DNA of 64,000 nt from Myxococcales bacterium. GTDB lineage: Bacteria; Myxococcota; Myxococcia; Myxococcales; JAJYLH01. The position numbers were made by a program, and so were the translations under genes. The notes under the pieces are model-generated. The model ran no database searches. It was not told the DNA's origin and saw nothing but the letters and a program-made list of their open reading frames with translations. Position 1 is the first letter of the stretch. Every line of letters begins with the position of its first letter. Where the stretch lies: assembly GCA_021787845.1 (NCBI GenBank), contig JAJYLH010000004.1:124001-188000 (forward strand), in the 5' to 3' direction. This document shows, piece by piece, positions 10,573-63,382 of this stretch.

Positions 10573-10648
10573 AAATCGCCCGCCGCGGGTGACGTTCAAG
10601 CGGTCGGCGGGTTCGACCGTGCCTCGAGGCCGCCAAGTCCTCCACGTC

Positions 10649-10689
10649 GATCGGACCGATCCGACGGATCCGACCGATCGGTCCGATCG
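10649..10689. repeat. 9-bp GATC tandem repeat, copy 2
   Basis: Units GATCGGACC, GATCCGACG, GATCCGACC and GATCGGTCC plus a partial fifth, lying between the convergent P-domain gene and uvrA. Confidence 0.85.
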
Positions 10690-16417: not shown

Positions 16418-17494
16418 CTACTCCTCTTGCAGCTCGGCGGCCAGCTTCCGGATGTTGTCGGGATAGTTCGCCACCAGCGCGGCCTCTTCCACGGTGATCA
16501 GCCCCTCGCGGATGTACCCCAAGAGGCAGGTGTCGAGGCTCTGCATCCCGCTGCCGTCGTTCTCGGCGGATTGGAGGTGCCCCTCGATCTGGTGAATCTT
16601 CCCTTCGCGGATCATGTGCGAGACGGCGTAGGACTGGACCAGAATCTCCAGCGCCGCCACCCGGCCCTCCCCGGAAGCCTTCTTGCAGAGCTGCTGCGCC
16701 ACCACCCCCCGCAGCAGGACGCTCATCGCGCCGCGCGCCTGGTCCTGCTGCTCCTCGGGGAACGCGTCGACGATGCGGTCGACCGCCTTGGCCGCGGAGT
16801 TCGAGTGGAGGGTCCCGAAGACGAGAACCCCGGTCTCCGCCGCCGAGAGGGCGAGGTTGATGGTGTCGAGGTCCCGCATCTCGCCCACGACGACCACGTC
16901 GGGGCTCTCCCGCAAGGCGCTGCGCAGCGCGGCGGCGAAGCTCTCGGCGTGCAGCCCCACCTGCCGCTGGGTGGTGACGCTCTCCCTCGGCTCGTGCAGG
17001 AACTCGACCGGGTCCTCGATGGTGATGATGTGCCGCTTCGAGGTGCGGTTGACGTAGTCGACGATCGCCGCCAGGGTGGTGGTCTTCCCGGACCCCGTCG
17101 GGCCGGTGACCAGCACGAGGCCGTTGGCGCTCTCCGCGAGCTTCTTCAAGACCTTCGGCAGCCCCAGCTTCTCGAAATCCGGCACCACCGGCGGAATCAC
17201 CCGGAACACCGCCCCCACCCCGCGGGCCTGCATGAAGATGTTGGTGCGAAAGCGGCCGACCCCCGGCATCGAGTAGACGAAGTCCAGGTCCTGCTCGCGC
17301 TCGAAAATGGCGCGCTGCTCGGGCGAGAGAATCTCGAGGATGAACCGGCGCGCCTCCAGGTCGGAGATCGGCCGGAACGGCAGCGGCACCATGTCGCCAT
17401 CGTGGCGGATGAGCGGCACCACCCCGGCGTGGAAGTGTAGGTCGCTCGCGGATTGCTCGACCACCAGGCGGAGGAACGAATCGAGGCGGGCCAT
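16418..17494 (-). CDS. pilT: Type IV pilus retraction ATPase, PilT family
   Basis: 358 residues, the normal PilT length. Walker A is GPTGSGKT (131-138), the Asp box is TIEDPVEF, Walker B is DVVVVGEMRD (about 199-208), and the His box is GTLHSNSAAKAVDRIVDAFP. PilT hexamers at the inner-membrane pilus base hydrolyse ATP to retract the fibre and drive twitching or gliding motility. The C-terminal helix SHMIREGKIHQIEGHLQS corresponds to the AIRNLIRE region that is essential for retraction in canonical PilT, but it is altered, so this may be a PilU-like paralogue. It lies 53 bases downstream of a HEAT-PilT fusion and is probably co-transcribed with it. Confidence 0.92.
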   Translation of the reverse strand: MARLDSFLRLVVEQSASDLHFHAGVVPLIRHDGDMVPLPFRPISDLEARRFILEILSPEQRAIFEREQDLDFVYSMPGVGRFRTNIFMQARGVGAVFRVIPPVVPDFEKLGLPKVLKKLAESANGLVLVTGPTGSGKTTTLAAIVDYVNRTSKRHIITIEDPVEFLHEPRESVTTQRQVGLHAESFAAALRSALRESPDVVVVGEMRDLDTINLALSAAETGVLVFGTLHSNSAAKAVDRIVDAFPEEQQDQARGAMSVLLRGVVAQQLCKKASGEGRVAALEILVQSYAVSHMIREGKIHQIEGHLQSAENDGSGMQSLDTCLLGYIREGLITVEEAALVANYPDNIRKLAAELQEE

Positions 17495-48805: not shown

Positions 48806-48917
48806 GAAGGCCTCCGGCCGCGTTGCGAGAAGCGCGGGGCGCGGATTCTGGCGAGCGCGCGACGCCGGCGCAAGGCGAGGCGAAAGCGCTGTCGTATTGC
48901 GCGCGTTGCGAGGTGGC

Positions 48918-48955
48918 GATCGACCGATCCGACCGATCCGACCGATCGGACCGAT
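48918..48955. repeat. 9-bp GATC tandem repeat, copy 3
   Basis: Units (one base short at the start) GATCGACC, GATCCGACC, GATCCGACC and GATCGGACC plus a decayed GATGGGG, lying between the divergent M20 peptidase and meaB genes. Confidence 0.85.
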
Positions 48956-51978: not shown

Positions 51979-52056
51979 TTGGAGCCGGACACGTGAGTGT
52001 CCGGGTGGGGCACGGACGTCCCGGGCGAAACCGGACACTGACGTGTCCAGCTCCAA
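51979..52056. repeat. Paired TTGGAGC palindromes (REP-pair-like), copy B
   Basis: A 78-bp element. The left end is TTGGAGCCGGACAC (51979-51992) with hairpin GGACAC-GTGA-GTGTCC. The right end is its inverse, CCGGACACTGACGTGTCC...GCTCCAA (52031-52056). It shares both ends with 21839-21966 but has a much shorter core. It lies between the cyclophilin and era. Confidence 0.8.
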
Positions 52057-52098
52057 CATCGGGGCAAGTGCGTCGCCCGGATAGGCATGGGAGCAGCG

Positions 52099-53289
52099 AT
52101 GGCTCGCACGAAGGGCGGTAGCGCAGGCGGCAAACGGAAGCGGCAGCCCCCGGCGTCCCAGAAGAAGCGCGCAGCGCACAAGTCCGCTCATCCTGAGCGT
52201 TCCTCCCCCGCTCATCCTGAGCGTTCCTCCCCCGCTCATCCTGAGCGTTCCTCCCCCGCTCATCCTGAGCGTTCCTCCCCCGCTCATCCTGAGCGTTCCT
52301 CCCCCGCTCATCCTGAGCGCAGTCGAAGGATGCGCGCCAGCCTGCCCACCGGCTCCCGCTCGGGGTTTGCGCTCTTGTTCGGCAAGCCGAACGTGGGGAA
52401 GAGCACGCTCTTGAACCACCTTGTCGGCGAGCACCTGGCGGCGGTCTCGCCCCGGCCGCAGACGACGCGGCAGCGACTCCTCGGCATCGTGCGCCAGCCG
52501 GGAACGGAGCTGCTCCTCGTCGATGCGCCGGGGGTGCACCAGCCGCGGGGATTGCTCCATCGGGCGATGGTCGAGGCGGCGACGAGCGCGCTCGCCGAGG
52601 TCGACGTGGTGCTCTACCTCGCCGAGGCCGGATGGCCGGCGGGAGCGCAGCCAGGGAGCGGAGTCGACATCGACGTCGTCGGCCAGGCGCACCGCGACCT
52701 CTTGCGGGCGGTGAAGAAGGCCGGAAAGCCGGTGGTGCTGGTGCTGACGAAGATCGACCTGGTGGAGCGGCCGAAGCTGCTCCCGATCATCGACGCTTGG
52801 CGCCAGGCGTTCGACTTCGCGGACATCTACCCGCTCTCGGCGCTCACCGGGGAGAACGCGAGCGGTCTCGTCGGGGTGGTGCGCCAGTACCTGCCGGAAG
52901 GGCCGCCGCTCTATCCGGAGGAGCAGATGACCGACGCCTCGGAGCGGGCGCTCGCCGCGGAATTCATCCGCGAGCAGCTCTTTCTCAAGACGCAGGAGGA
53001 GGTGCCCTACGGGACGGCGGTGGCCATCGACGCCTTCGACGAGCAGGAGCGCGAGTCCGACCGCGGCCCGGGGCTCGTGCGCATCGAGGCGACGATCATC
53101 GTCGAGCGCGCGAGCCACAAGGGCATCGTCCTCGGCAAGGGCGGAGAGCGGCTCAAGGAAATCGGCACCGAGGCGCGAAAGCGGCTGGAGAAGCTGCTCG
53201 GCTGCCGGGTCTGGCTCGGGCTGCACGTGCGGGTGGTTCCGGGTTGGACCGAGAAGCGCGCGCTGCTTTCCGAGCTGGGTCTGACCTAG
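52099..53289 (+). CDS. era: GTPase Era with repeat-derived N-terminal extension
   Basis: 396 residues versus about 300 for typical Era. GTPase motifs are intact: GKPNVGKST (95-103), TTRQ, DAPG and TKID, and a C-terminal KH domain (GIVLGKGGERLKEIGTEARKRLEKLLG) that binds 16S rRNA during 30S assembly. The first 77 residues are foreign: a Lys/Arg stretch (KGGSAGGKRKRQPP) and six AHPERS units encoded by the palindromic repeat array. ATG 52099 has GGGAG properly placed; ATG 52330 (MRASLPTGSRSGFALLFG) lies at the normal Era start but has no spaced ribosome site. Which is used needs experiment. Era follows rnc and cyclophilin. Confidence 0.93.
   Translation: MARTKGGSAGGKRKRQPPASQKKRAAHKSAHPERSSPAHPERSSPAHPERSSPAHPERSSPAHPERSSPAHPERSRRMRASLPTGSRSGFALLFGKPNVGKSTLLNHLVGEHLAAVSPRPQTTRQRLLGIVRQPGTELLLVDAPGVHQPRGLLHRAMVEAATSALAEVDVVLYLAEAGWPAGAQPGSGVDIDVVGQAHRDLLRAVKKAGKPVVLVLTKIDLVERPKLLPIIDAWRQAFDFADIYPLSALTGENASGLVGVVRQYLPEGPPLYPEEQMTDASERALAAEFIREQLFLKTQEEVPYGTAVAIDAFDEQERESDRGPGLVRIEATIIVERASHKGIVLGKGGERLKEIGTEARKRLEKLLGCRVWLGLHVRVVPGWTEKRALLSELGLT
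52186..52333. repeat. In-frame 24-bp tandem array inside era
   Basis: Five exact 24-base units, each GCTCATCCTGAGCG plus ten C/T-rich bases, then a sixth unit that switches to CAGTCGAAGGATG. The final unit reproduces the whole palindromic element, whose separate copy is at 53333-53363, with its right arm supplying the ATG at 52330. As 24 is a multiple of three, each unit adds eight codons (AHPERSSP) without a frameshift. Confidence 0.9.
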
Positions 53290-53332
53290 TCCCCACACCA
53301 GAATAGCCTTGATATTCGTGCTGTCCTGGACC

Positions 53333-53363
53333 GCTCACCCTGAGCGCAGCCGAAGGATGAGCG
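53333..53363. repeat. Extragenic palindrome, TGAGCG-type
   Basis: GCTCACCCT, then GAGCGCAGCCGA, then AGGATGAGC: nine-base arms with one wobble-type mismatch, in the convergent gap after era. It is the same element that was expanded inside era. A weaker relative (GAGCGCAGTCGAGGGAG) occurs at about 54664-54680. Confidence 0.75.
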
Positions 53364-54607: not shown

Positions 54608-54652
54608 GATCGGACCGATCGGACGGATCGGTCGGATCGGACGGATCGGACG
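54608..54652. repeat. 9-bp GATC tandem repeat, copy 4
   Basis: Five uninterrupted units: GATCGGACC, GATCGGACG, GATCGGTCG, GATCGGACG and GATCGGACG. It is the longest and most regular array, lying between the lipoprotein stop and the alaS promoter. Confidence 0.88.
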
Positions 54653-63130: not shown

Positions 63131-63382
63131 GAACGCGTTGAGGAGGCGCATCGACTTTCCGATGCGGGGAAAGAACGCGTTGAGGAGGCGCATCGACTTT
63201 CCGATGCGGGGAAAGAACGCGTTGAGGAGGCGCATCGACTTTCCGATGCGGGGAAAGAACGCGTTGGGGAGGCGCATCGACTTTCCGTTTCGAGAAAGGA
63301 TCACGTGCCGACGGCGTTCCGGATTTCCGATCTGGGAAAGGATCGCGTGCCGGCGGCAGTCGACGTTCCGATGGCCGGGTCC
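63131..63382. repeat. 42-bp tandem array with internal hairpin
   Basis: Six adjacent units of 42 bases starting at 63131, 63173, 63215, 63257, 63299 and 63341; the first three are identical, the fourth differs mainly at its end, and the last two are decayed. Each intact unit contains CGCATCG-ACTTTC-CGATGCG, a perfect 7-bp hairpin. There are no unique spacers, so it is not CRISPR. Read leftwards, one frame gives MRLLNAFFPRIGKS per unit with 12 of 14 third positions G or C. It fills the 441-bp gap between a histidine kinase and the pseudokinase; the rest of the gap shows nothing. Confidence 0.85.

Follow-up and report, generated by a model that had tools for sequence, protein, structure and literature searches.

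A probably translated, in-frame copy of a REP-like palindromic array at the start of era in a Myxococcales bacterium

Palindromic repeats that lie in frame within protein-coding genes have been published for Rickettsia, Wolbachia, and many REP-bearing bacteria. The Rickettsia and Wolbachia palindromic elements (RPE and WPE) are dispersed, occur in frame in unrelated genes, and add solvent-exposed peptide segments to the encoded proteins (PMC10969869, PMC3767692). GTAG and CGTC REPs, in the accessible part of a survey of these repeats, are palindromes of 20–40 bp that are mostly intergenic, sometimes in frame, and frequent at N-termini; the intragenic REPs described there include clusters coding for 43–82 residues, many of them N-terminal and some untranslated, and the CGTC REP is given as having a CGTC end, a stem of 8–9 bp, a loop of 4–5 nt, and a CCA tail (PMC3733652). 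PARCEL elements are palindromic DNA that codes for tandem peptide repeats and is spread among genomes, with an amphipathic unit of 25 residues (PMC2996958). A sequence-only reading of a 64,000-nt stretch of a Myxococcales genome (the window) had singled out a repeat array at the start of era as an unusual conversion of a repeat into protein.

The era gene lies next to a peptidyl-prolyl isomerase gene (cyp), with alaS downstream. The features of the locus, in window coordinates, are as follows.

51979–52056, no strand assigned: imperfect inverted repeat with 39-nt arms containing GGACACGTGAGTGTCC and CCGGACACTGACGTGTCC, in the cyp–era gap directly upstream of era
52087–52098, plus strand: in-frame ATG (52087) and Shine-Dalgarno sequence GGAG (52090–52093), the latter 5 nt before ATG 52099
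52099–52184, plus strand: probable true Era start, judged by accessibility and synonymous codons, and basic, low-complexity pre-array segment MARTKGGSAGGKRKRQPPASQKKRAAHKS
52184–52319, plus strand: tandem 24-nt array with a unit of a 15-nt hairpin (CGCTCATCCTGAGCG) and a 9-nt linker (TTCCTCCCC), reading AHPERSSP
52304–52336, plus strand: full palindrome closing the array (CCGCTCATCCTGAGCGCAGTCGAAGGATGCGCG), whose right arm supplies ATG 52330
52330–53289, plus strand: Era core, with the G domain (MMR_HSR1) and KH_2 domain identified by Pfam
53332–53363, plus strand: stand-alone palindrome of the same family, about 43 nt past the era stop codon

The protein is an Era GTPase, with Pfam matches to MMR_HSR1 (5.3e-20) followed by KH_2 (6e-18) and 48–56% identity to Era from 17 relatives. 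Direct reading and Tandem Repeats Finder (5.7 copies, 100% matches, score 272) agree on the array that the earlier reading had placed inside era: five exact 24-nt units and a sixth that is fused to the full palindrome, the whole tract (52184–52336) being in frame with era. The reading frame, already open before 52087, continues through the array as (AHPERSSP)x5-AHPERSRRM and into Era. The stand-alone palindrome matches the terminal palindrome of the array at 85% over 40 nt, and the claims that the last unit resembles it, that its right arm encodes ATG 52330, that each unit keeps the frame, and that 77 codons separate ATG 52099 from ATG 52330 all held on inspection.

When we searched the whole genome (6.24 Mb in 153 contigs, 98% complete), the 20-nt palindrome core gave 307 matches at up to two mismatches, compared with 3 for a reversed-pattern control, and strict 24-nt doublets numbered 85 compared with 0. 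The consensus of 149 copies, CCGCTC(A/G)TCC(T/C)GAGCGCAGTCGA(A/G)GGA(C/T)GAGCG, spans 33 bp with sharp borders, the left one included, and consists of 10-nt arms around a loop of about 12 nt. Further counts come from 0.91 Mb surveyed around listed copies; these regions were chosen for holding elements, so per-megabase frequencies in them are not genome averages. The survey gathered, by the 24-nt period, 33 arrays of one polarity, in which left units (15-nt left hairpin GCTCATCCYGAGCG plus 9-nt linker) are repeated and closed by a palindrome. The right half-palindrome directly follows the last unit in 32 of the 33, and a right-half doublet at 24 nt was seen just once. An independent count of neighboring left halves found 86 pairs spaced at 24 nt; the remaining spacings from 18 to 45 nt add up to 28 pairs (nine at 21 nt, one to three at each of the others), with a separate class at 13 nt outside that range. 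A single unit folds into a 6-bp stem with a 3-nt loop. Linkers are 92% alike inside an array and 50% alike across arrays, and a change of array length by slippage is plausible. The era array looks like a pre-formed type of element with its own period and polarity rather than a product of the adjoining palindrome. On another contig, two identical five-unit arrays with the same flanks lie 7 kb apart (L180:9722–9849 and 16740–16867), which suggests a larger duplication.

Like RPE and WPE, this family consists of dispersed palindromes that occur in frame in unrelated protein genes and add peptide segments to them; unlike RPE, which measure 100–150 bp and are found in Rickettsia and Wolbachia, it has a 33-bp consensus, grows by one-sided tandem steps of 24 nt, and belongs to another order, Myxococcales, so that it falls outside the Rickettsia palindromic element family. 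It shares with GTAG and CGTC REPs their general size, their preference for intergenic sites, and the occurrence of some copies in frame within genes, but bears neither end tag (consensus CCGCTCATCCTGAGCGCAGTCGAAGGACGAGCG), has CGTC only internally, differs in arm and loop length from the CGTC REP, has no CCA tail, and does not flank a RAYT gene. A polar array of left half-palindromes does not figure in the accessible part of the survey of those repeats (PMC3733652). The eight-residue unit, on ordinary housekeeping genes, also sets the family apart from PARCEL, with which it shares tandem peptide coding by palindromic DNA (PMC2996958). A search of the literature for the palindrome sequence or its peptide returned nothing relevant. 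By behavior, in-frame palindromes are of a known kind, of which the polar 24-nt array is a variant; as far as the literature, in the parts accessible, shows, what distinguishes the variant is the one-sided half-palindrome array at a 24-nt pitch together with its spread through the housekeeping genes of one lineage.

Relative to genes, which were called with a simple self-trained dicodon model and in most of the named cases are backed by Pfam, the elements are strongly intergenic. Of 116 element clusters, only 8 (7%) sit within a gene and strictly in its frame, compared with 53% of width-matched random positions (p = 2e-26), and in no case is a gene's frame broken by a cluster within it. Arrays are in frame more often than single palindromes (6 of 31 clusters versus 2 of 85, p = 0.005). 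Within the surveyed 0.91 Mb the element is present in frame in roughly twenty genes. One palindrome family is therefore carried in frame by several unrelated genes, which is the behavior of a protein-coding palindromic element of the RPE type.

When N-terminal cases with a credible upstream start are included, about 12 of the 33 arrays are coding, and era is consequently not the singular case that it had been taken for. Besides era, the array-bearing genes are those for cytochrome oxidase subunit I (ctaD), histidine ammonia-lyase (hutH), a DPP-IV-type peptidase, a molybdopterin oxidoreductase, an outer-membrane efflux protein, a DUF58 protein, a DUF4175 protein, a DNA methylase (the array lying downstream of the domain), a very large protein with a fatty-acid-synthase helical domain, a putative lipoprotein, and one protein with no Pfam match. 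Single copies are in frame in the genes for COX3, three RND pumps, an aldehyde dehydrogenase, glutamyl-tRNA reductase, and a solute-binding protein; the Pfam matches to ALDH, ACR_tran, and SBP_bac_5 span the inserts. The firmest case of a translated array is ctaD, in which AAAGGAGG stands 6 nt before the ATG and the product reads MSDSTT[PAHPERSAPAHPERSRGTA]AGTNYLNAQRGIKSWLTTLDHKRIG (COX1, 8.8e-152). Six residues, the array, and the conserved COX1 start follow one another there, and another plausible start is absent; with a strong Shine-Dalgarno sequence before the array and the conserved start of the protein after it, the array must be translated. In hutH the element comes after some 20 N-terminal residues, and from that point on the protein aligns to solved histidine ammonia-lyases. 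The alignment of the DPP-IV-like protein to 5yp1 is split into two pieces at the array (query 562–611 versus chain 481–495).

The reading frames of the element in use include AHPERSRG, STALGMS, LDCARDE-like, and LIPSAVEG, so no single peptide is selected, and coding arrays are found in both orientations relative to their genes. Intergenic and coding arrays share the 24-nt pitch, which is thus a property of the element, not of selection on a protein; it is tolerable within genes because it is a multiple of three, and a unit of 24 nt equals eight codons, so that gain or loss of units cannot break the frame.

Whether the era array is read as protein depends on where Era begins. The earlier reading had favored ATG 52099 on ribosome-site evidence, and this is the better-supported start by Shine-Dalgarno sequence, mRNA accessibility, and codon choice; Era probably starts there, and translation of the array is likely. 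The alternative is that the array forms an untranslated 5′ leader, that the palindrome-given ATG 52330 is the start, and that any effect of the hairpins is on mRNA stability or initiation. We consider this unlikely, though it draws weight from several sides: the elements are intergenic overall, N-terminal REPs are often non-coding in the accessible part of the literature on them (PMC3733652), and in most of the relatives compared, which are of the same order at nearest, the sole plausible Era start is no more than about 16 residues away from the conserved RAGF-x-GRPNVGKS, about where ATG 52330 falls. In that alignment, a few sequences that lack a clear start were begun at the aligned residue, and three (L078, L083, and L084) have more distant candidate starts; none of the relatives compared has an Era extension comparable to 77 residues, and homologs from a public genome collection were too distant to inform the N-terminus. 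Against a leader stands the calculated cost of opening the mRNA, 18.3 kcal/mol at ATG 52330, which sits in the 3′ arm of a −12 kcal/mol hairpin, and 10.6 kcal/mol at ATG 52099, compared with a median of 13.9 kcal/mol for 124 reference gene starts with a Shine-Dalgarno sequence. ATG 52330 has no spaced Shine-Dalgarno sequence before it, which is weak evidence because several relatives' Era starts also lack one. The 29-codon pre-array segment has a favorable synonymous-codon score of 0.75, at the 23rd percentile of real N-termini, that is reached by 9% of non-coding open reading frames with a Shine-Dalgarno sequence and ATG (its other frames score −1.8 or lower); its dicodon score of −0.5 fails to set it apart from those non-coding frames, lying at the 10th percentile of real N-termini while 45% of the non-coding frames score as high. 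The frame also stays open throughout, though the unit has a stop in one of its three sense frames.

The array might instead owe its unit number to misassembly, the locus holding a single palindrome or fewer units. Five identical units over a 136-bp tract in a fragmented assembly of 153 contigs invite that suspicion, but the genome has many further arrays with this period at unrelated places, their units diverged and their linkers not the same, and such arrays are therefore real; a length change by any multiple of 24 would in any case leave the frame intact, and we regard an artefact as very unlikely. Extremely improbable is an action of the arrays as RNA in the manner of CsrB sponges. The minus-strand unit hairpin does present CAGGAUG, the CsrA recognition motif, at its loop, and the array's minus strand scores 42.9 bits (E = 5e-10) with the Rfam CsrB model. 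That score is below the family gathering score of 71, which places the array outside CsrB RNA, the arrays occur in coding genes in both orientations, and the CsrA gene is absent from this 98% complete genome, in which the search controls were detected; the sponge is rejected for want of CsrA.

Taken as a whole, it is fairly probable that the era array is an in-frame copy of a lineage-specific, REP-like palindromic family, translated from 52099 and probably neutral. Building on the observed family, copy number, period, polarity, intergenic bias, and in-frame gene copies, we suggest that a REP-like palindromic element multiplied in the genome of this lineage, one form of it being the polar array of left units and 9-nt linkers closed by one full 33-nt palindrome. 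Movement of the element would have been by insertion or copying, mainly between genes, and copies inside genes would survive only where the frame is kept and the site is tolerant, such as just past the start codon, between domains, or in loops. An array would thus have entered the first codons of era downstream of the start at 52099 and would be translated within a 77-residue unstructured stretch that precedes a normal protein with GTPase and KH domains. AlphaFold, from a shallow alignment of 18 sequences, places residues 1–82 below a pLDDT of 50 and predicts an intact Era fold after residue 82. The extension is accordingly predicted to be a disordered, floppy tail, and we infer that it is probably a neutral passenger. 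That the arrays constitute a distinct class of protein-invading element, inserted or copied as a unit and then changing in eight-codon steps, with dozens of proteins (Era and cytochrome oxidase among them) bearing tails or loops that drift between strains, is a tentative proposal that we hold to be doubtful.

In a comparison of 195 genomes of the phylum, this one has 85 strict 24-nt doublets and no other has more than 6. In the order, for which 145 genomes were compared, the palindrome exceeds a handful of copies in just one further genome (G058, 42 copies at up to one mismatch), whose sampled copies mostly show another layout; inheritance from an ancestor of the order is thus unsupported. One locus of G058 (L233:4454–4624, minus strand) has palindromes of the same core 24 nt apart, with in-frame ALSGAEGP repeats flanked by coding sequence on both sides. 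Viral contigs contain no exact copy of the palindrome core. A plasmid search returned one distant array, on a Comamonas antarctica plasmid (NZ_CP054841.1), and a search started from that array recovered only itself. Left-half units there are followed by one full similar palindrome (GCTCACCCTGAGCCTGTCGAAGGGTG) in the same polarity, but the period is about 27 nt by reading, the array is intergenic, the linker is another one, and a single locus was seen. The similar polar array on this plasmid suggests that the layout is wider than this genome.

The genome has a single RAYT-like gene (L152, about 1324–1785), and its flanks are other palindromes, of the GTAG type (GTAGGATGGACAGTCC), with no copy of the studied palindrome nearby; mobilization by a resident RAYT is therefore unsupported. 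The REP-associated transposase-like gene between GTAGGATGGACAGTCC palindromes is seen in both L152 and L232, and that repeat has 33 matches in 0.91 Mb.

These observations show palindromic repeats inserted widely into the coding sequence of housekeeping genes in a GC-rich lineage that is neither Rickettsia nor Wolbachia, with a unit length that makes expansion harmless to the frame. Together, ctaD, hutH, the DPP-IV peptidase, and era offer clean natural cases for how non-coding repeats become protein, and they warn that the N-termini of such genes are easily misannotated.

Other repeats were met in the same regions. A second abundant palindrome family (GGACACGTnAGTGTCC / CCGGACACTnACGTGTCC), which includes the inverted repeat at 51979–52056, has about 100 matches per motif in 0.91 Mb. 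A 9-nt unit (GATCGGACG and variants) forms short, frame-preserving runs at 10648–10689, 48917–48955, and 54608–54652 of the window, and 63 runs of at least three units were matched in 0.91 Mb. At 63131–63348 the window holds a 42-nt tandem repeat of 3.7 copies at 99%.
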